Assembly: GCA_027605045.1 (NCBI GenBank)
Contig: JAQFWX010000062.1
Location: 145,551-209,550 of the forward strand
Direction of reading: 5' to 3'
DNA: 64,000 nt
DNA from: Phallus indusiatus
Taxonomy: Eukaryota > Basidiomycota > Agaricomycetes > Phallales > Phallaceae
Positions within the stretch are counted from its first letter, which is position 1, and every line of letters begins with the position of its first letter. The translations under genes and the position numbers were made by a program. Positions 12,009-26,029 of the stretch are shown here, one piece after another. A model generated the notes under the pieces. The model was not told where the DNA came from and ran no database searches. It saw nothing but the letters and a program-made list of their open reading frames with translations.

Positions 12009-12241
12009 GTGATGCCTGTGACATCACCTCGCTTATGCTCGGTTCGGGCGTCTAGCACTTAGCTGTGTCAGGGCCGCACGCCGCGTTATCGTTTTTCATG
12101 TATATAGTTGCTGTACCTAGAGTGAGGGTCCCTAAGCTTGTTCTCTTAGGATCCCCTCCCTCTAGGTGAGTAGTTAGTTCTTTCTCCAATATATTCACTT
12201 AGGATCCCCTCCCTCTAGTTGTGAGTTGAGTAGCCCTAACA

Positions 12242-14325
12242 ATGAAGAGCTTCCAACCTCATTTTTGTCTGTAAGTTCTGGATCATCAAGCAGAGTCAAT
12301 CCAGCACCTTCAGAATCATTTATTCGCGATGTCTGTGAGTTTTTCATGGACTGGCAGCGACGAGAAGAAAGTGCACAGTATATGCGTACATTGGCTGGTG
12401 AGTAATGGAACTTTTTTTTGAACTTCTTTTTTCTTATTTGAATTAGGTATGGCAATTGGGCTAGACTCAACAATTAAAATTGCAAAGAAAGCAAATATTT
12501 ATATCAAGACATCAGGACAGAAAAAAATGAAAGTGATCAATGTTTTTGACGGCGGCTTACTCACTGGCGTAAATGAAGATAAAGAATTGGTGATTTGTGT
12601 GAGTTCAATCAATGTTGTAGAATTTTCGTCATTATTAGAACCTATTTTTCAGGAATTTCTTGGCACCAGTTCATATGGGGAGATGATCCCGCCTGTCCGT
12701 GAATTTGCTGATCAATGTGACTCCCACAATGTGCCATTTCGAGCTGCTGGCCAGATTTGTGTTGATAGGTGTTGTGATTTCAGGAAGACCTTGCAGATTG
12801 CAATCCCTGGTATCACCGTCACACAGGATTTAGCACATCTCAAGGCGCGGATAATGGACACCATCCCAAAGAGAAGTCCCTATCGTGACATTTTGAGCCG
12901 TGATATTTCTGATGCTCTTATCAGTCAGAAGAGCATGAAAAAAGGCGATCCTCCAATTTATCATCCACAAGAAGAACAAGAGTCACGATTGAGATCTGTA
13001 TGGGAAAAATATGCGAATGCGGCAGGTGTTTGGACAAGCGAATCTGAAGCCGTGTTCTTCCGTCAAGTGGCACATGCTGGGAACGGTTGTCTTCAAAATG
13101 ATGACCCTCATTGGATGGCAACAACATCTCTTAATGAGAATTGGCATAAACAGCTAAACCGGTTGTCTGTCGGACGCACTGGAAGCATAACAATGATTGA
13201 AGGCACTGGAGACATTGTAGGGTTTAGCCAAAAAAAGGATCTTAAGAAAATTATAGTTCGAGGTATAGTCCATTGATGATTTACCAAATTGCAAAATCAT
13301 ATTATAACTAATACTCAGATTAAGGAATTCTGATTTGGAAAATTGTCAGTATACTGCTATAACTATCTTGGTTGAATTATGTAATAATTCTTTGTCATAT
13401 AAGCCTATGATCAATCTTATCCATTCAGTAAAATAATAAACAGAGTGAAACTTATATTATCATCATCTATATTGAAGAATGTTCTGAAAATATTGTTTAT
13501 ATTTATTGTGAGAATATATTTCTATCATAATTTGGATGCATGGGAAAAGCTTAATTTTAAGCATGAGAATACTCTTTGTAATATTATAGTTTTCCTGGGA
13601 AAACCTTAATAATACATGGATTCCTGGAAAATGCTGAGAAAACTCTAATGTCACAAATTGTGACCTTAAGTTTTAATTACACAGAAACTCAATATTTCCC
13701 ACTCTCTCAAAATTATGATAAAATACTGTATTGACAAGTAATTATATCAACTTGAATATATAATTTTCCACTATAGTTAATAATAATATATATTTTAGTT
13801 TGTATACTGTTTGACTGAATAGAGAAAGTTATTTATAGTGTTATATAAGTAAAAATAATTATAGAATTTAACTAAGATAATAATAGCAGCATACTGATGA
13901 TTTTGCAAGCCAGAATCCTTTAATCTGAATATTAGTTATAATATAATTGTGCAGTTTGGTAAATCATCAATAGTCTATACCTCGAACTATAATTTTCTTA
14001 GGATCCTTTTTGGCTAAACCCTACAATGTCTCCAGTGAGGACTAGTGATGGATGCTATTCTTCGACATAATTTGACGGTTAAAATTGACAATCGCTCTCA
14101 ATCATTTGACTCACCCTCATGCCAGTTCCGTCTCAAAGCCGAAGGATCCCATCATTTATTTCTCCTGGAAAGTATTCTCCGTCAGCGGGAAATTTTAACA
14201 AGCACTCCACAGCCCAAGTTTCTTAATGTCAGACCAGAGCATAAGATTGGGCTTGTACCACGCGAAAGGTATCCATTTTCTCACCCTCTTGTGATATTTT
14301 TTTATTTATTTTGTGCTTTATGAAG
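12242..14325 (+). pseudogene. Transposase-like gene (gene A), N-terminal part, disrupted
   Basis: The coding frame begins inside the end of the Ty3-B LTR, so the true 5' end is lost. Exon to about 12398 (ESFIRDVCEFFMDWQRREES), a ~50-nt intron (GTGAGT...TTAG), then a long exon from 12447. Visible features: an RNase H-fold-like pattern with acidic residues GLDSTIK, CVDRCCDF and QDLAHLKARI, then TTSLNENWHKQLNR and, across the 834-bp insertion, a LRHN motif. The same R/T-x-x-x-E-x-x-H...LRHN order occurs in the exonuclease element at 14.4-24.2 kb, so the two belong to related transposase-like families. Removal of the insertion at 13204-14037 plus one agg restores the frame exactly (TMIEG joins LVMDA). 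Function as a transposase is inferred. No protein name can be given with confidence. Confidence 0.68.
13204..14037. mobile_element. CACTG-ended element with ~140-bp inverted repeats
   Basis: 834 bp, flanked by agg at 13201-13203 and 14038-14040. Both ends start CACTGGAGACATTGTAGGG and stay about 90% alike for about 140 bp inward. Its end motif CACTGGAGACAT is shared with the 303-bp MITE at 11706, although the remainder differs, so both were probably moved by the same type of transposase. The interior is AT-rich and non-coding. It sits in an exon of gene A. Confidence 0.9.
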
Positions 14326-14350
14326 GGGACACCTATTATAGTGGTGGGCC
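14326..14350. repeat. Left terminal inverted repeat of the exonuclease transposon
   Basis: 25 bp; pairs with 24271-24295 at 23 of 25 positions. The shared core is CCTATTATAGTGGTGG. Confidence 0.75.
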
Positions 14351-15888
14351 CTGCCGGGAGCAAAAAAAAATTAAATAAATTAAATAAATTAATTCAAAAG
14401 GGAGCATCCGGCTATTCGTATTATTATCGTTGAAATATATTTATATAAGACTTGAACTACTCTTTAACTGTAAAGATGCATTTATTTTTTCCCCAGCGCC
14501 CCTTACAATCGCCTTGCCGACATTGTGTACACGTCCGTGGTTTTTTTGAAACAACTGGATGCTCCTGCACAGATGCATCGATTGCCGGTCGTTTGTTTGG
14601 TTGGCGCTGAAATGCCGCTCCCTCACCATAATAATATTGCATGTTGATTGACGTCTGATTGACCTCTAGGGTTCCAAGGAGGTTTTGCATTTGCCAATTG
14701 TTTGATAATGGCACTGTTGGTCTTTGTATGGGAGCTGAGATTGCCTGCGTCAACGGCTGTGGGTTAGCAACTGGAATAGTGAAGTTAATATATTTGGAAT
14801 TTGAGGCAAGGAGTTTGCGAATTTTTTCAATAGCGGCGTGATTCTGTTCTATTGAATTCTTCTCATTTCGACGCTCATTCCATGTCTTCCAGTATGCTTT
14901 AAGATGTTCCGGCAGCTGCAAAATGTCCAAGTATGTATGTATACAGTTTATTAATGTCATACCTTGTAAAAAACCTGCTTGCCGTCACAATAGCCTGACC
15001 ATGAGTGAGCAAGAGAAATCCAATTTGGCTGGTTGGAGCCACTGAAAGGTCCGTTAACCATTTGTGCAAGTCCATAAAAAACAAGCTTCTCAGCTTGTGT
15101 GTGAAGTGGAAGAACAGCGACACGTGTTCCTTGTGATTGAGCCAAAAATGTGTGCCGGATTCCTTGTTCGCGTGCATAGTTTTCACTAAATGGCAGCATT
15201 GCATATTTTGTTAGCATTGCTGAGGATAGTGGCATGATTCCAAATTTTTCTTGAGAGCGTTGATAATTATTCCCGTTGACCCAGCCACCTGACCCAAAAT
15301 ATGGAGGGACTGAGTTAAAACAATTTGCGACTTCATCCAATAAAGCGGCAATCCTATTCTTCAGCCAAATGTCATAATGTCCTACATATGTCAGGGTACG
15401 CTACCACCGTCTCTCATTTTTCTTTATTTATTATTGCCGGCATATATTCTTTTCTATTTCACTTACATTTCCCATATCTCACTTTCGCTCTCCGTTTATT
15501 TGTTCTGTGTAAGGGTACGATCGTTCAGTAGTTAGCTTAAGGATCAGATGGAGTATAACCCAGTAGCCCAATCTATAATAGCGCAAGGAACTACTCTTAC
15601 GTGCACAGGTGTATATATATACATGAGTACGTTATCTCTACCAATAACGGTCAGGTACTATATCTACCAATAGGAAGGAAGGCAGTCGATGGCGAATAGG
15701 AAAACATGAGAAAGAGGAAGATGGTGACAGAATGGAAGCGTATGGAGAAACGGTGAATGTACGGGAGAATACGGGAGGATGATACGGACCGGCATACCGG
15801 GTACCGTACGATGAACATGGTAACGCGGGGTCGACATATGCATTGTACTATACTACGCAGTATACTAGATTAGCCCTTATGGTCCTAG

Positions 15889-17119
15889 TGTCAAGTACCG
15901 ATATCCGGGAACGGCTATAGATACTATAATGTATTTTAGTCGCTGAATATAACACTGATAACCGTCACCGTTGGCCGACGATAGTCAGGACTTGGCCTCA
16001 ATCTATAAGAGATTGTGCCGCGACAGTCTTCTTCAGGATTTGTCCTGACGTTCGTCACGAGCGTCGAGTTCGTCAAGGACGTTTCTGATATATGCGTTCC
16101 GAGCCTCGAGAACCGCGAGCTGTATCTCGTACTGAATGATATTGTCACGGTACGCTAGCGCCTCTTCCGATTATTCGATTTATTCGATTTCTTCGATTTC
16201 TTTCGGTTTCATTTCGTATTACGATTTCCTCCATTTCCCGTACTTTGCCGTTTCCATTAGTTCCCTCGATTTCTCGATTTCTCGATCTCTTCGATTTCTT
16301 TCGATTTCTGTTTGTATCTCCTCGGATCCCATGGAGATCAGTCGGGCGCCTCATATTCGGTACTTATATGCGTTTTCCCTAGAGGGGGATACCTAAGCTT
16401 GTTCTCTTAGGTTTTCCCTCCTCTAGGTGAGTAGTTAGTCGTTGTCCCTCAATAGATCTTAGGTTTTCCCTCCTCTAGGTGTGTGCCCTGAGTCGCCCTA
16501 ACAGATATCAAGCTCGACGATAATGAAGAAAGCTTCAAGATGTAGCTCTCGGCAACGACGGATGACTTCCGTCGCTGCAGGTCTCGAGGGGAGATCTCGA
16601 CGTTCAATGATGATTAGAATAAGAGAAGGAGGGTTTATAGAGATATCGAATTACGTTCGATATTAAGTCTGAAGAATTATCTACGAGTATGCTAGGGTTT
16701 ATATACATGTCAGATAAATAATTCTAGCTCAGTTCGAAATAAATTCCGAACTAGAGAAATGTAAACATGTCGTGAGATTCGTAAGTAATATCAATATATG
16801 CAGGGTATGATGTCTCATGTGATGACCATGAGGCATGCAGGGATAAGTGCTGTGCATACATGGACCTACGTTCGTCATCCATGATCTCATAACCGGAAAG
16901 TGCGTGGAATATTCTAGAAAGGGCTTTCCGCGGGTGTTCCAGGAGTTAAAGGAGACGGGTACATCTCTATACGAGTTGCGAGGTTGGTAAAGATGACTGA
17001 ACGTGAAGGTCTTATCATGAGTGACGTAAGCATGATAAGATAACGGAGATAACAGATAAATGATCGGATATGGATTACGTAACGTTACCAGAAGTGATGT
17101 CATGAATCGGATCATGACA
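15889..17119 (-). repeat. Family-2 solo LTR, third shell of the nest
   Basis: Matches the 5' LTR at 1296-2161 over its whole length; flanked by cctag (15884-15888 and 17120-17124). Net length 865 bp without the inner insertion. No gag lies beside it, so it is a solo LTR left by recombination. Confidence 0.95.
16143..16503 (+). repeat. Diverged family-1-like LTR (family 1b), innermost of the nest
   Basis: 361 bp, TGTCACGG...GCCCTAACA, flanked by gatat (16138-16142 and 16504-16508); the family-2 copy at 1296-2161 has gatat once at this point. Body sequence (TTCGATTT repeats) is unlike family 1, but the promoter-to-R block is kept, including the CCTAAGCTTGTTCTCTTAGG core. Confidence 0.93.
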
Positions 17120-17899
17120 CCTAGCACGTACCCTGACATTCTGTCTCTACTTCACTTTCTCTACTTGCGCGCGTTGCGCGCTCATACCCAGCATGATGCC
17201 CGTGACATCACCTCGCTTACGCTCGGTTCGGGCGCCTAGCACTTAGCTGTGTCAGGGCCGCACGCCGCGCTACCGTTTTTCATGTATTTAGTCGCTGTCC
17301 CTAGAGTGAGGGTCCCTAAGCTTGTTCTCTTAGGATCCCCTCCCTCTAGGTGAGTAGTAGTTTCTCCTCGATATAATTGCTTAGGATCCCCTCCCTCTAG
17401 TTGTGAGCTGAGTAGCCCTAACAACATACACTTGTCCTGTCCGGTTTAAAGTGCCACACTTAAAACAAAGTTGAGTGAAGATGAAGAGATTAAAATAGTA
17501 AACTACAAACCCTGAAATTATGTCTCAAGCAGTAATCCCGTAATAAATGAACTGCAAGGTGTGGTGTTACATTATACGACCCAAACTTTTTGTGCATGTC
17601 GCGATGCACTCCACCTTCAACATCATTTGTGCCTCGACAACAACGGTAAAGAATTAATCCATTTTTGTCTTTGCGCTGGAAGTAATATAATTGAACACCT
17701 GGAGAATCTGAATAAAAAGCTCAACGAATATTCTCCAAAATATTAGACGCTTTTTTCCATGAGTTATCATTGAATAATGGGGCTCCTGTATTCACATCCT
17801 TCATGGGACCATATGTTGCGAAAATTCCAGTGACACGCTGGAAGAGCTGCTCTGGGCCAGGAATAAAGCGCCGCACTCGTTTGAAAACATACTTGGGGT

Positions 17900-18295
17900 T
17901 GTTAGGGCTACTCAGCTCACACTAGAGGGAGGGGATCCTAAGTACTATATTGGAGAAATACTAACTACTCACCTAGAGGGAGGGGATCCTAAGAGAACAA
18001 GCTTAGGGACCCTCACTCTAGGGACGACGACTATATACATGAAAAACGGTGGCGCGGCGTGCGGCCCTGGCACAGCTAAGTGCTAGGCACCCGAACCGAG
18101 CGTAAGCGAGGTGATGCCACGGGCATCACACCGGGAACGAGCGCGCGGCGCGCGCGAGCAGAGAAAACGAAATAGAGACGGAAACAGACAGTGGGGAATA
18201 AATGTAAAACACGGAAAGGATAAATAGAATGAAGATGAAGGAATGCCGAGGATAATAAATAAGGAAAATGGGGACGGTGGTGTTGTACCCTGACA
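17900..18295 (-). repeat. Family-1 solo LTR
   Basis: 396 bp, TGTTAGGG...CCCTGACA, flanked by ggggt (17895-17899 and 18296-18300). It interrupts the exonuclease-element gene between HP and KYVFKR codons without loss of coding bases. Confidence 0.95.
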
Positions 18296-19355
18296 GGGGT
18301 GTTGGAGAACCATTTTGTCATATGTTATTTCGCGTTTTTGCAATACCTCTTGCAGCGCAGCCTTATCTTCAGGATCTGGAAGAAGAAGTGCATCACGGAG
18401 AGCTCGTGCAAATGGATGCCGTAAACCATGGTGCACAGAAATTTGGAACTGGTGCATTAAGTGCCAGCAATCCCCAAGTACACGTGAGCGAATGACTGGG
18501 GCTTGTTCTGAACAAGAACGGGACAGAAGTTGATTTGCACGCATATCACCATGCTCATCTCTGTCTGACGTTTCAAGGCACTGCTCATCACTCGCTTGAC
18601 CATCATCAACGTCATGATACCAGGGCATGTTATCTTCTCCCATAGCCAGCATCTCTTCAACATTGTCTATTTCTTCGACTGAGCTGTCTGCGCGAGAATT
18701 GTGAGGTGTGCCGGCATCCAATGTTGGCAGTAGCGTTGAATCATCCTGGTTGGAGTTGCTTTGGCGAGTTTGCAAATGCTTTGCAAAACAAAGCAGTGTA
18801 AATGGCACCTCACCAAAGACTGTGAGTGATTGGTCGGTACGCGTTGATGTTAACTCCTTTGGCACTTGATATCCTGGGACCAAAACTCAAGTTATTTCAA
18901 CGAGAATGCGAGATTTTGATATCTCAATGCCATTAAACGTTGTGGACTGGTTTTCAGATAGGTAGCCTTCTGCTGCCTGCAACAATAGTTGAACGATTGC
19001 GAGATAGTAAGGATACCAACGTTCCTCCCGGCATGTCAGGTGTGACTGACTTTGGTTTTTCAGATTTGCTGAGCACTGAGTAAATTTGTATAGATGTATA
19101 TGCATCTCTTGCGGCATATAATTCTTGATCTGGAGTGAGTTCAGATCGATCCCATTCAGTACTGATTCGGATTGATGAATCTTTGGGCAGATGCTGTTTC
19201 AAGACGATTGCAGAGAGTTCAGCGAGGCTGAAGGAGGATTTATCCACAATATTTGATGTTTTTGCTAATGTGCGCAAGTCGAGACCACCGGTGAAGGGGA
19301 GTTCTGTATCATCTTTGTCAAATCCACAATCCCGATACAGCCGTTGCAAATCTGC

Positions 19356-20151
19356 TGTTAGGGCACGATCGTTCAGCGATGAGACTTAAGGATCAGACTG
19401 CTACTATAACCCAGTAACCCAGTCTATAATAGCGCAAGGAACTACACATGCGCACACGGAAGTATATATACATGTTTACGTTATCTCTAACCAATAACTA
19501 ACAGGTGCATTATCTGCCAATAGGAAGAGTCGGCAGTCGAGGACATACGAACGACATAGAGAAGGAGGGAGATGTGACAGAATGGAGCGAACGGAGAAAC
19601 GGGGAGAGTTCGGGAGAATACGCGAGGGATAAGTACGGACCGGTATACCGGGTACTGTTAGGGCTACTCAGCTCACACTAGAGGGAGGGGATCCTAAGTA
19701 CTATATTGGACGATAACTATACTACTCACCTAGAGGGAGGGGATCCTAAGAGAACAAGCTTAGGGACCCTCACTCTAGGCACAGCTACTATATACATAAA
19801 CGACGACGCGGCGTGCGGCCCTGACACAGCTAAGTGCCAGGCGCCCAAGCCGAACCTAAGCGACGTGATGTCACGGGCATCACGCCGGGTACGAGCGCGC
19901 GACGCGCGCGAGTAGAGAAAGTGAAATAGAGACAAAACAAAGAAACGGAGAGTGAAAGTAAAATATGGAAATGATAAATAAAATAGAAACGAAATGATGC
20001 CGATGATAATAAATAAGAAAATGAGAGACGGCGGTAGCGTACCCTGACAGGTACCGTATGACCGACGTAGAGCGCGTAGGCATCTAAGTAGGTTATACTA
20101 TACTACGCTAATATACTAGAATGACCGTGAGTCCTGGGACGTACCCTGACA
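19356..20151 (-). repeat. Family-3 solo LTR with a nested family-1 LTR
   Basis: TGTTAGGGCACGATCG at 19356 to GTACCCTGACA at 20151, flanked by tctgc (19351-19355 and 20152-20156). It splits the exonuclease domain at the NVNAD/LQRL motif II. Removing the inner family-1 LTR leaves about 397 bp. Confidence 0.94.
19656..20049 (-). repeat. Family-1 solo LTR inside a family-3 LTR
   Basis: 394 bp, flanked by ggtac (19651-19655 and 20050-20054). TSS-like AAGCTTGTTCT is present on the minus strand near 19752-19762. Confidence 0.95.
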
Positions 20152-20394
20152 TCTGCATTAACATTGACACCACACTTGTGCACGCGACTGGAGCGGAGCA
20201 AGGTCAGCAATGCACCTGGAAGCTTGAGATATCCATCTGTATTCAAAAATGGAAAAAGCTACTAGAATATCAGAAAAAAAATGATAATTATTTCACCAAA
20301 AATTTACCTGTATCAAAAAAACATATGGCTCAAGTGCAATCTGAACTAATGCTGTCCGTCCCTGAATGCCCGTGTTTAGATCAACTGGCCATTC

Positions 20395-20511
20395 TGTCAG
20401 AGAACGCTCTAGTACAACATATATAGGAGCTAGCAGCATGTCAGACAGCTCTGACATTGTGGTTGCCTTTTGGCTAAGTGGTCAACGCTGCTGCTAGAGC
20501 GCCCTCTTACA
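20395..20511. mobile_element. 117-bp TG...CA mini-element with 5-bp target duplication
   Basis: Starts TGTCAGAGAACGCTCTAG and ends in the near inverted complement CTAGAGCGCCCTCTTACA. Flanked by cattc (20390-20394 and 20512-20516). It interrupts the exonuclease motif I exactly: without it and one cattc, GFDTE is followed in frame by WPVDLNTG. It carries ATATATAGG but no coding. It could be a tiny solo LTR or a short MITE; the 18-bp imperfect inverted ends are longer than most LTR termini. Confidence 0.8.
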
Positions 20512-20602
20512 CATTCTGTGTCGAATCCAATGAATAATTTGCTTGTTGGAGAGTCTTGCAAGTGTTCTAACATTTGATTTAAACGTGTATTGATTTGGAA
20601 TG

Positions 20603-21000
20603 TGTTAGGGCTACTCAGCTCACACTAGAGGGAGGAGATCCTAAGCAAATATATTGAGGGAGAAACTACTACTCACCTAGAGGGAGGAGATCCTAAGAGA
20701 ACAAGCTTAGGGACCCTCACTCTAGGGACAGCAACTATATACATGAAAAACGATAACGCGGCGTGCGGCCCTGACACAGCTAAGTGCTAGGCGCCTGAAC
20801 CGAGTGTAAGCGAGGTGATGTCACGGGCATCACGCCGGGAACGAGCGCACAACGCGCACGAGTAGAGAAAGTGGAATAGAGACAGAACAATAAACAGAAA
20901 GCGGAAGTGAGATACGGGAAATGTAAATGAAATAGAAGGAGATATATGCCAAAAGTAATAAATAAGGAAAAACGAGAGATGGCGGTGGCGTACCCTGACA
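20603..21000 (-). repeat. Family-1 solo LTR
   Basis: 398 bp, flanked by gaatg (20598-20602 and 21001-21005). It lies upstream of the exonuclease domain in the element's gene. Confidence 0.95.
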
Positions 21001-21043
21001 GAATGTAGACCGGAGTTTAATGACTGTCCATGATAGTGGGATT

Positions 21044-21435
21044 TGTCAGGGTACGCTACCGCTGTCTCTCATTTTCTTATTTATTATCATCGGCATCATT
21101 TCATTTCTATCTTATTTATCATTTCCATATTTTACTTTCACTCTCCGTTTCCTTGTGCTGTCTCTATTTCACTTTCTTTACTCGCGCGTTGCGCTCGTAC
21201 CCGGCGTGATGCCCGTGACATCACGTCGCTTAGGTTCGGTTTGGGCGCCTGGCACTTAGCTGTGTCAGGGCCGCACGCCGCGTCGTCGTTTTATGTATAT
21301 AGTAGCTGTACCTAGAGTGAGGGTCCCTAAGCTTGTTCTCTTAGGATCCCCTCCCTCTAGGTGAGTAGTTAGTTTCCCTTCCAATATATTGTCTTAGGAT
21401 CCCCTCCCTCTAGTCTGAGCTGAGTAGCCCTAACA
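21044..21435 (+). repeat. Family-1 solo LTR
   Basis: 392 bp, plus sense, flanked by ggatt (21039-21043 and 21436-21440), only 43 bp from the previous solo LTR and in opposite orientation. The coding frame (NLPAVQI then PLSWTV) reads across it. Confidence 0.95.
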
Positions 21436-22688
21436 GGATTTGCACTGCTGGAAGGTTTGTGATGTCCGGAACGGGCACAACATTGTTGCGCAGAGGAGGG
21501 AAGACTCTTTCCAGCTCATTTTTATCAGAGAGATTATCTGTATATACCGCTTCAATCGTCCCATGACCGTACATCTTCAAAGATTGAGGAATTAGTTCCA
21601 GTGCCGGCATGAATTGATTATGGCCTTTGGTTGGTGTGAGCAGCATTGAGCGTATCTCCACATATTCATTGGAGACAGTATGCACAGCACTAAATATTTG
21701 AGTTCCTTCAACTCTGCCAAGATGTCCCGGGACCTGTGCATATAACATTCAAATTTCAAATTCTGGGATACTGGAGAAATAACATACCTTGTGACTATGA
21801 TCAATTGAAAGAATCCGCGCGGATAGCATTGCCATATGTTGATCAATCTCTGCCGCATGTTGATCCATAAATTGCTCGTAAAATGTCCGGAAATACAGAG
21901 CGCTTGGCACATGGCCACTATATCCATTGCGATCTGTGAAAAGACCAAATGGAGGGCCGCGATTTTGCAATGTGTTGAACAACGGCATAGATTTGCGGCT
22001 CTTTATCATTTCAAGGTATTGGAGATGTAACTGATCAAAATGACAGTAATGGAAAGCACGAATCATTTCAGAAAAAGGTCCAGGGCCTATTCCTCTTTGG
22101 AAACACGAGCGCATAAGTGTTGCAACCTCATCGGTTAAGCCACCACGGTAGGTCAGATGATGCGTGAACTGCATGGAAAGTGCGGGTGGCAACACCTTGA
22201 GAAATTTGGGACTCCAGCTCTGAAAGATTCGCTTGCAATCAGGGTGAATGCAACGGTACCGATATCCAACCAAGTAGAGGCTGGAATTTAAATCCGTTAT
22301 TCACCGAGGTGTGTTAGGCCATCCATGTGCTTGCACACAGATAGCTGCATTGTTTTTTTCCTTCCGGCCCTCATCCAGACATGCAGGACATGGGATCCTT
22401 GTTTTTACGAGTAGATGGGGGATTCAGATCCAAAACTTTGGTTGATAAAACTGTTGCGGCTGGGGGCGTGCATTCCTCTCAGCACCGAAGTATGGAGTCG
22501 CGTGTTCAATGAATGTATGCCGTTCATAGCAAGTTGGTTGGCGGGAAGGATTGGTTTTGAATTCTTTCATCAGACGAAGTTTGAGATCATCATAAAGGCC
22601 TGATAACCAGTTCAGTATTGTTGAGCGCTGGACTGGCTGACTGGCAGGGATGCTTTGTACTGGATTTTCATCATCATCAGGCAGCGGC

Positions 22689-23084
22689 TGTTAGGGCTAC
22701 TCAGCTCGCACTAGAGGGAGGGGATCCTAAGACAATATATTGGAAGGGAAACTAACTACTCACCTAGAGGGAGGGGATCCTAAGAGAACAAGCTTAGGGA
22801 CCCTCACTCTAGGGACAGCGACTATATACATGAAAAACGATAGCGCGGCGTACGGCCCTGACACAGCTAAGTGCTAGGCGCCCGAACCGAACCTAAGCGA
22901 CGTGATGTCACGGGCATCACACCGGGCACGAGCGCGACGCGTGCGAGTAGAGAAATGGGAACAGGGACAGAACAAATAAATGGAAGAGGAATATGATGTA
23001 CGGGAAATACGAATGAGATAGAAATAGATATATACCGATGATAATAAATAAGAAAATGAGCGACGGCGGCGGTGTACCCTGACA
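22689..23084 (-). repeat. Family-1 solo LTR
   Basis: 396 bp, flanked by gcggc (22684-22688 and 23085-23089), in the acidic N-terminal region of the exonuclease-element gene. Confidence 0.95.
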
Positions 23085-23314
23085 GCGGCTGGAATTCGAA
23101 ATCAATATCTTCATCAGCACTCAGTCCCAAAAGTATGTCGAGGTCATCCTGAGGGTCATTCTCAGCAGCGGTGAGATCAGAATTATATGGATTGGCTGCT
23201 TTTACCGGTGGCATTAATATAAATAAATCATAAGAAAGGAAAAACCCACAGTGATGGTGTGATGTTTCTTTACATTCTAAAGTCTCTTCCTCCGTCAGAT
23301 TTCCAGATTCCGCG

Positions 23315-23710
23315 TGTCAGGGTACGCTACCGCCGTCTCTCATTTTCTTATTTATTATCATCGGCATCGTTTCTTTTCTATTTTATTTATCCTTTCCATA
23401 TTTTACTTTTACTCTCCGTTTCCTCGTTCTGTCTCTATTTCACTTTCTCTACTCGCGCGCGTCGCGTGCTCGTACCCGGCGTGATGCCCGTGACATCACG
23501 TCGCTTAGGTTCGGCTTGGGCGCCTGGCACTTAGCTGTGTCAGGGCCGCACGCCGCGTCGTTGTTTTATGTATATAGTAGCTGTACCTAGAGTGAGGGTC
23601 CCTAAGCTTGTTCTCTTAGGATCCCCTCCCTCTAGGTGAGTAGTTAGTTTCCCTTCCAATATATTCTCTTAGGATCCCCTCCCTCTAGTGTGAGCTGAGT
23701 AGCCCTAACA
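23315..23710 (+). repeat. Family-1 solo LTR
   Basis: 396 bp, flanked by ccgcg (23310-23314) and ccgca (23711-23715), a duplication with one change. It lies near the 5' end of the exonuclease-element gene. Confidence 0.92.
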
Positions 23711-24270
23711 CCGCAGCTTGCTCATCATCAGTAGGCATGGCTAAAATGAGTTCTTCAACCGCATCAATATCCTGCTCGCCGGTACTGGACTTCTCATCAT
23801 CCAAATCCATCACTCCTTCAGGCACAACTAAATTAACACTTGTTTCTGGTTCTAGACTAGGTGCAGACGGCGACATAGATAAACCCTCATTCCCAGCAGG
23901 CAATCCTGACAAAAAAATTCAGTAATACAAAGAGCCGGCTGAACAGCAGAACACACCTTCCATATATTTCCTAATTGTGTTTTGAAAGGCTTGGATACCC
24001 CACGGCTTAGGGGGCAGTGCATTTTTTCTCGGGCAGCCAACAGGACCAGCTCCAGGCTTATTCTTAGTTCCTTTGGGACGGCCTCGACTTCGTTTGGTTG
24101 GCTGTGGGGCTGGTGTGCTTTTTTGAATTGAACGCTGCGCGGATTCACGTGTGCTTGACATGAATTGATGGACAAGGGTTATAGAGAAGCACGTCGTGAG
24201 CACTGTAGAAGTCGCTTCGGAAGTAAACCTAACTCTTACCATATACGGTAGGTCGTTTTAAACTCAGTTA

Positions 24271-24295
24271 GGTCCACCACTATAATAGGTCTCCC
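24271..24295. repeat. Right terminal inverted repeat of the exonuclease transposon
   Basis: Inverted partner of 14326-14350, located 110 bp upstream of the predicted ATG of the element's gene. Confidence 0.75.
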
Positions 24296-25727
24296 TATAT
24301 AAAATGCTGACTATCTTTCAGGAAAATTCCGAAGGCGCGCCTACAATTCTCAAGCGGAATAATTCATGCTTGAATGAGTAAGTGACATCAAAATATTCTA
24401 GCATATAACTGATAATTTTTCTCTTAAGTGATACAAGTTTGCCCAACAAAGTCCAGGTCCTTTGTGACCAGAATATTCTCAAGATTACTGCAACACCGTC
24501 ATGCCCCTCTGACATTCCGCAACATCAAACACTGTTGGTCCCTGAGGTGGCACTCTTGTCCGATTCACAACCATTATCATCTGAGCTCCCTTTGTCACCC
24601 TCTCTATCGTTTTCACTTTCATCAGCCCAAATACAGGAAACAGGTATTTCTTTTTTTCAAAATCCAGTCTTTATTGCTTGCAGATAGCTCTCTGTTAGTT
24701 CTGCCAATCCAAAAATGTGAAGACAGTCAACGGGAAGTTTTGCCTATGCCTTGTCCGCCGCTGCCGCTAAGTTCAACGCTGCCTCTATGCTCACTACCAC
24801 TTCCCCTTCCAACATCCACCACCTTTTCTCCCAGTGCAGCTGCTACTAATACTTCAACTTCGTCTGTATTAAAGCACTCACGAACAGAACATACAATGTT
24901 CAAACTCACCGGGAGAAATGTATCATTGGAGCTTCTTGAAAACACAGTCCAACTTAAGTCAGATGGCCATTGGCGCTGTTGTGCACTTCGGATGCAAGAC
25001 AAATGGATCTCTACAATGTCAGATACAGACTGGGCTAGAGCTTGTGAACGGTATAACAATCCAAATACTCCAATTGATCCTCAGTATTATCGTAAAACAT
25101 TCCCGTATGACTCCATTCGCCGAGATCCTAACACACTTAAAAAGTGGTGTATCGAGTTTGAGGAGACATGCCAAAGATGGCGTGCAATCGGGGACAGCAA
25201 TCAACAAGGTTAACAAAATTGTATTCTTCCTGAAATATTACTGACAGTATACAGGACTGACTCCATGGAAACAAATGCATTTGACGCTTCCTCTCCCGGA
25301 ACGGCCCACCACAACATCCAAGCAAAATCGTGTGACGAAAGTCAAGGTATGCAGCCGCTGCTGCAAAACAAAGGATGGAAAGGGCCTCGGGAAGGGTCAT
25401 CAACGTGACTGCTGTGATGACGGTTTTCCGATCTGGAAAAATGTGCCGTATCCGCTCCCTCCACACATGGCATCCCTCCAGAATGGACAGAGTGCCGTGA
25501 GTCCCAATATCTGCCTGACAAGGTTTAGAGAAATGGCCGAAGCACTCAAGGGCACGTGTGGAGATATATCCCTGCTATCTCAAGAAATGCAAAATGTTTA
25601 CACATTCGAAAAACTTGCTCGTTTATCAACTGTTTCCAGGTCTCTTGAAGAAGCTTTAGTTATTGGGATAGCGGCTTACAGGTTTGACCGGGAGTTTATT
25701 GAGAAAAAGCGGAATAAAGGGATTTAA
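24296..25727 (+). pseudogene. Gene A, C-terminal part, resumed after the 10-kb insertion
   Basis: After an acceptor near 24318 (CTATCTTTCAG), exons run with 45-50 nt introns to a stop at 25725-25727. The predicted protein has a Ser/Pro-rich linker, a region with LLENTVQLKSDGHWRCC and PYDSIRRDPNTLKKWCIEF, then a cysteine cluster CSRCCKTKDGKGLGKGHQRD. A Ser/Pro linker followed by a terminal cysteine motif also ends the exonuclease-element protein, which supports kinship. That this is the same gene as 12242-14325 is an inference from strand, position and domain order; the splice phase across the insertion was not resolved. Individually these exons look intact. Confidence 0.6.
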
Positions 25728-26029
25728 TTATATACATGTATGTACTACATACAATAAACTGAGCCTAGCTTGGTCTGGGCGGGTGTTTGGTAACTTCTGA
25801 CATTAGAACTTCTGGGGAGAATTTTTACGGGCGCCGAAGCGCCGTAAAGCTCTCATGGTTTGGGGAAATACAGATATATGACCACGTTGCCGGAGAGCGA
25901 CGAGCAGTTGTTGTTGAAGAAGAAAAACGAGGGTGCGAGAATATCTCACATCCGCGAGGGCCTAGACCTGAACGTTGTCAGTTGCAAGGTAACGAGAGAT
26001 GGCGGAAACAAAGAGGGAAAGAGACGAAC
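25728..26029. other. Intergenic boundary between transposon-rich and gene-rich halves
   Basis: About 300 bp without a recognised gene or repeat. It holds the 3' flanks of gene A (plus) and the protease-like gene (minus). A small inverted GGCGCCGAAGCGCC sequence lies near 25830. Confidence 0.5.

Follow-up and report, generated by a model that had tools for sequence, protein, structure and literature searches.

The ends and insertion site of a degenerate, probably Dada-like DNA transposon with an exonuclease inside its transposase in Phallus indusiatus

The element, its borders and its gene

The window analysed here is the whole of a 64-kb stretch of the Phallus indusiatus genome (C165:145551-209550, in an assembly of 67.2 Mb in 206 contigs), and the element in question occupies positions 14326-24295 of this window, with inverted repeats at both extremes (Table 1). 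These terminal inverted repeats (TIRs) are identical at 23/25 bases and lie inverted at the very ends, the left one 106 bp from the stop codon and the right one 109 bp from the ATG of a single minus-strand gene, in agreement with an earlier note on this DNA which had described such a gene framed by 25-bp inverted repeats about 105-110 bp away. With up to 3 mismatches permitted, GGGANACCTATTATAGTGGTGG matches twice in the window, in both cases without a single mismatch, and 100 shuffles give no match. Both borders are fixed, as copies of the surrounding sequence without the element, found on contigs C78 and C1, align with the window as far as base 14325 and then once more beginning at 24296. 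The same note's reading of a TIR DNA transposon with a WRN-type 3'-5' exonuclease in its transposase is supported.

The motifs of the gene follow each other in the order D1, D2, DEDDy exonuclease, DxxH and E, the exonuclease lying within the DDE core, after D2 and ahead of its DxxH/E part, not at one end of the protein, and its motif II (VNVNAD and ADLQRL) being interrupted by an insertion in this copy. Pfam searches match DUF6729 (E 5.5e-7) and, under the cut-off, the exonuclease family PF01612 (E 4.2e-4; 20.6 vs 23.6 bits). Most motifs that had been listed beforehand are present (AT-hook, cysteine region, YAARDAY, LRHN); DTE-W is not, the window having FDTEC, with C instead of W.

Table 1. 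Features of the element and of the gene in which it lies (window coordinates)
Feature	Position	Strand	Evidence or remark
Left TIR, at gene 3' end	14326..14350	+	C78/C1 match runs up to 14325
Right TIR, at gene 5' end	24271..24295	-	C78/C1 match restarts at 24296
Dada-like transposase pseudogene	about 14457..24161	-	ATG 24161, stop 14457-14459, three in-frame TGA, seven insertions
AT-hook-like RGRPKGTKNK	24057..24086	-	Motif in window copy
DUF6729/zinc region, running on to D1	21749..22690	-	Pfam match and motifs; two in-frame TGA inside (22415-22435, 22292-22315)
IPCPAC (zinc region)	22379-22396	-	Motif
RCIHPDC (zinc region)	22235-22255	-	Motif
SIDHSHK, D1 (first catalytic D of DDE core)	21788..21808	-	Motif; D in 124/125 aligned relatives
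VYTDN, D2 (second catalytic D)	21533..21547	-	Motif; D in 132/132 aligned relatives
Exonuclease motif I (FDTEC 20511-20525) and first half of motif II (VNVNAD 20151-20168)	20151..20525	-	Motifs
Second half of exonuclease motif II (ADLQRL) and motif III (YAARDAY 19098-19118)	19056..19355	-	Pfam search and motifs
GDCWHL (DxxH)	18458..18475	-	Motif; D 127/130, H 128/130 aligned relatives
GTNDVEGG (catalytic E)	17610..17633	-	Motif; E in 117/118 aligned relatives
C-terminal CX2CX4CX8C zinc-like motif	14478..14531	-	Motif
LTR-like insertions	15389-17423, 17900-18295, 19356-20151, 20603-21000, 21044-21435, 22689-23084, 23315-23710		
Nested further LTR-like copy	19656-20049		Inside insertion 19356-20151
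Target, left part: exonuclease-less Dada-like transposase gene	12241..14325	+	Holds 834-bp hairpin insertion 13204-14038
Target, right part of same gene	24296..25760	+	184 bp gone at junction vs C78 (C1 spacing equal)

The window copy is dead, as its exons carry three in-frame stops, all TGA (the third at 17715-17732), and the gene is broken up by seven insertions resembling solo long terminal repeats (LTRs), with TG...CA ends and mostly of about 396 bp. The 5-bp flanks of these insertions are identical in six cases and alike at 4/5 bases in that of 23315-23710; without them the element would measure about 5.2 kb. The first two TGA codons sit where compared relatives mostly show W or R, the outcome expected of C-to-T or G-to-A changes. 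Seven LTR-like insertions have accumulated in this one element, although the flanking gene differs from its copies without the element by only 1-2%; this points either to much recent activity of the LTR family or to an element that brought some of these insertions along when it moved.

Relatives of the protein and the predicted exonuclease fold

A protein search returned 172 relatives, mostly with the same layout. Among the 120 listed, those that are named come from mushrooms and include several diverged entries for one species (five for Lyophyllum atratum, for example). As had been foreseen, they are annotated in mushroom genomes as DUF6729 or 3'-5' exonuclease, some also as Werner-like helicase protein. 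Pattern matches in IMG/VR (14) and in GTDB species genomes (5) yielded no confirmed relative. Residue conservation was scored on 140 proteins, with those aligned at a given position as the denominator. The exonuclease residues are conserved in 123/132, 128/133, 126/131, 127/133 and 128/132 relatives, and an N-terminal CCCC zinc finger is present, its four Cys being found in 99-105 of 102-108 aligned proteins. The spacing of these Cys is CX2C...CX4C in the window and in P0007 (Amanita muscaria), and CX4C...CX2C in P0111 and P0114. At the other end, CX2CX4CX6-10C occurs within the last 120 residues of 25/140 relatives, many gene models being truncated; a His ligand was not seen. P0112, the only protein recovered from Laccaria, retains D2, DxxH and E.

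The WRN exonuclease domain is part of a RecQ helicase. Of two predicted structures, that built on the P0087 alignment (60 sequences) was used, the one for P0011 (21 sequences) being weak in the DDE core. Exonucleases filled the listed matches in fold searches with both models, and among the closest known systems is the WRN exonuclease domain (2e6l, 2fbx), from which the element's domain differs in sitting inside a transposase core. According to these models, the exonuclease has the WRN fold, and it carries DEDDy motifs.

The insertion site and other copies

The two flanks of the element match the same places on C78 and C1, the right one at 99% starting at window base 24296, and the left one at 98-99% up to 14325, apart from an 834-bp hairpin element. 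With the DDE piece of this flanking gene as query, four proteins were recovered, which belong to Clathrus and Cryptococcus (P0141-P0144), two of them named 'Transposase' in UniRef; no Pfam family matched this exonuclease-less group. The profile of the four proteins aligns with the family that bears the exonuclease, starting at the zinc region and ending shortly ahead of D2 (hhalign probability 98.4, E 8.2e-15; 97.3 against a smaller alignment of that family), and they keep D, D, DxxH and E in the same order, with about 21 residues from D2 to DxxH where the element's family has its exonuclease. The flanking gene thus codes for a related transposase, and a Dada-like element without exonuclease was the target of one with it. 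The hairpin element is of the kind seen in miniature inverted-repeat transposable elements, has several dozen copies in the genome at about 89-98% identity and is not in the gene copies at C78 and C1.

The flanks had been expected simply to rejoin within a related gene. The related transposase gene is there, but the simple rejoining is not: C78, read across the junction, has 184 bp between the matched flanks that are missing from the window, and the spacing on C1 is equal, going by match coordinates alone, its junction sequence not having been read. Both borders of this deletion coincide with the TIR ends. No target site duplication (TSD) is visible by comparison with C78 and C1, at the only site for which relatives without the element are available, so that the constant duplication proposed as a check finds no support there; a TSD may have been lost, since 184 bp of the target are missing at that site. 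As C78 and C1 carry the target gene at other places in the genome and do not show the site before insertion, the loss may also stem from a deletion at an earlier or later time or from recombination of two insertions. Searches found no tRNA genes in 14 related loci and no Rfam families in 9 sources totalling 138,687 bases.

Searched genome-wide with up to 2 mismatches, ACCTATTATAGTGGTGGNC gave 14 matches, against 1 for a reversed-pattern control. Nine of the 14 share the subterminal sequence of the element (the pair in the window, a pair on C195, two on C130 and one each on C173, C2 and C142), four are two pairs in an identical context unrelated to the element, and the remaining one, on C25, lies in a context assigned to neither group. 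The ends on C130, C173, C2 and C142 have no detected coding sequence. Alignments among dispersed ends start or stop at the TIR (C126 from 14325, C2 from 14323, C130 to 24295). The C195 copy is 99% identical and has flanks identical to those of the window, for which reason we treat it as an allele and not as independent evidence; the window and C195 are the only two places in the genome with DUF6729. The only other coding copy found, on C126, has 74% identity in DNA and 76% in protein over one exon, is without two of the window's insertions and carries a stop of its own. Gene copies lacking the inverted ends had been named as a possible refutation; on C126 the left TIR is present but diverged (4 mismatches in 24), the right end not having been reached.

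Two candidate sites were set aside. The two C130 ends lie 38.6 kb apart, one of them without the terminal GGG, and no coding match was found between them in the parts examined (all but about 2 kb). C189, homologous to the left C126 flank (95% over the query, 96% over a longer stretch), was dropped as an empty site for C126, another repeat beginning at the same boundary whose sequence was not found on C126. This repeat is dispersed, its 36-bp start being found at a dozen places, and two different elements may have one target in common at this boundary (L044 near 3191, L045 near 3187).

A probable Dada-like transposon and alternative readings

The element is very probably a decayed Dada-like DNA transposon of the type with an exonuclease that has been described in Laccaria. 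In its description (Kojima and Jurka 2013, PMC3706591), the Dada superfamily has a DDE transposase with DxxH and with CCCC and CCHC zinc motifs, and the families of Laccaria bicolor (Dada-1_LB/Dada-2_LB) and Ectocarpus (Dada-1_ES) have, in addition, a DEDDy exonuclease placed after the second D and before DxxH; its authors regard it as likely to process cleaved 3' ends. The element is like these in its DDE core with DxxH, its N-terminal and putative C-terminal zinc motifs, its introns and the site of its DEDDy exonuclease. As this layout was published for Dada in 2013, the new transposon class suggested in the earlier note is not one, and the exonuclease inside a Dada transposase was already in print (PMC3706591). 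The novelty lies in knowing the ends exactly, in an unusual target and in the loss of 184 bp where the element was inserted, although TIRs of fungal Dada may be published in subscription papers or Repbase. Dada counts for Ganoderma are given in PMC8955403; no mention of DUF6729 was found in the open literature searched.

Exonucleases are carried by other DNA transposons as well. KolobokD (PMC9587614) is a C/DxxH-group DDD/E transposon with a DnaQ-type 3'-5' exonuclease, but of the DEDDh type and related to TREX/ERI1, whereas that of the element is WRN-like and DEDDy. In ISL2EU (PMC4482050), a YqaJ exonuclease is encoded in a separate open reading frame instead of inside the transposase.

YqaJ exonuclease has another nuclease fold. 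Several observations weigh against the assignment to Dada or against a mobile element in working order. The published Dada-U6 and Dada-U1 have short subterminal repeats and no TIRs, whereas the element has a TIR of 25 bp; all Dada with definable ends are inserted in small-RNA genes with short (6-7 bp) TSDs, whereas the element lies in a transposase gene, has lost 184 bp of it and shows no TSD (PMC3706591). We call it Dada-like and do not file it as a Dada family because its target is not a small-RNA gene. The proposed tie to the Laccaria families leans on their published description; the gene model of P0112 has no readable exonuclease residues and no Pfam match; and no transposase structure for the DDE core was among the listed matches of either full-protein fold search. 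The two independent coding loci found, in the window and on C126, are both broken, which goes against the autonomous element claimed earlier and leaves the case for mobility with the dispersed ends. The differences in TIR, target and TSD from the published families with defined ends would suit a separate superfamily beside Dada with the same exonuclease layout and its own target reaction. This seems unlikely to us, as the Laccaria and Ectocarpus Dada already hold an exonuclease at the same place and P0111 and P0114 show the zinc spacing of Dada-U6_DR (PMC3706591). Since what is available of that paper describes no ends or targets for Laccaria or Ectocarpus, the whole exonuclease-bearing branch may share the TIR and target traits. 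That some relatives are named 3'-5' exonuclease or Werner-like helicase protein might instead suggest a host gene with unrelated inverted repeats nearby, an idea that is scarcely credible: it is already contradicted by element-free copies whose borders fall at the repeats, and the lack of chance TIR matches in shuffles, the dispersal of the ends and the diverged entries within single species all speak against it.

As for the insertion itself, the Dada-like transposase would bind DNA, its DDE core would perform strand transfer and its exonuclease would trim the transposition ends, and the element was presumably once mobilised by the protein that it encodes. To link the exonuclease with the 184-bp deletion would be a further step of inference. 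Recombination between insertions and adjacent deletions are known from insertion elements to leave borders at element ends, as seen here, and it is likely that the loss was secondary, through recombination of two insertions 184 bp apart or a later adjacent deletion by the transposase, with the exonuclease uninvolved. Dada copies without a normal TSD, for which one-ended transposition was suggested (PMC3706591), fit this explanation, which needs an extra event; one site offers nothing decisive. It is very unlikely that the mushroom exonuclease-bearing Dada form a TIR-bearing branch off small-RNA-gene targets, in which the exonuclease resects target ends and insertion deletes target DNA rather than giving a short duplication.

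The ends of a Dada-like element with an exonuclease, of a kind that is widespread in mushrooms, are now known to the base, and comparisons of insertion sites can therefore put the end-trimming proposal of 2013 to the test. In the relative adjoining the element, the core can be seen as it is when the exonuclease is absent. For any mushroom gene labelled DUF6729 or Werner-like exonuclease, the first question should be whether it is a transposon.
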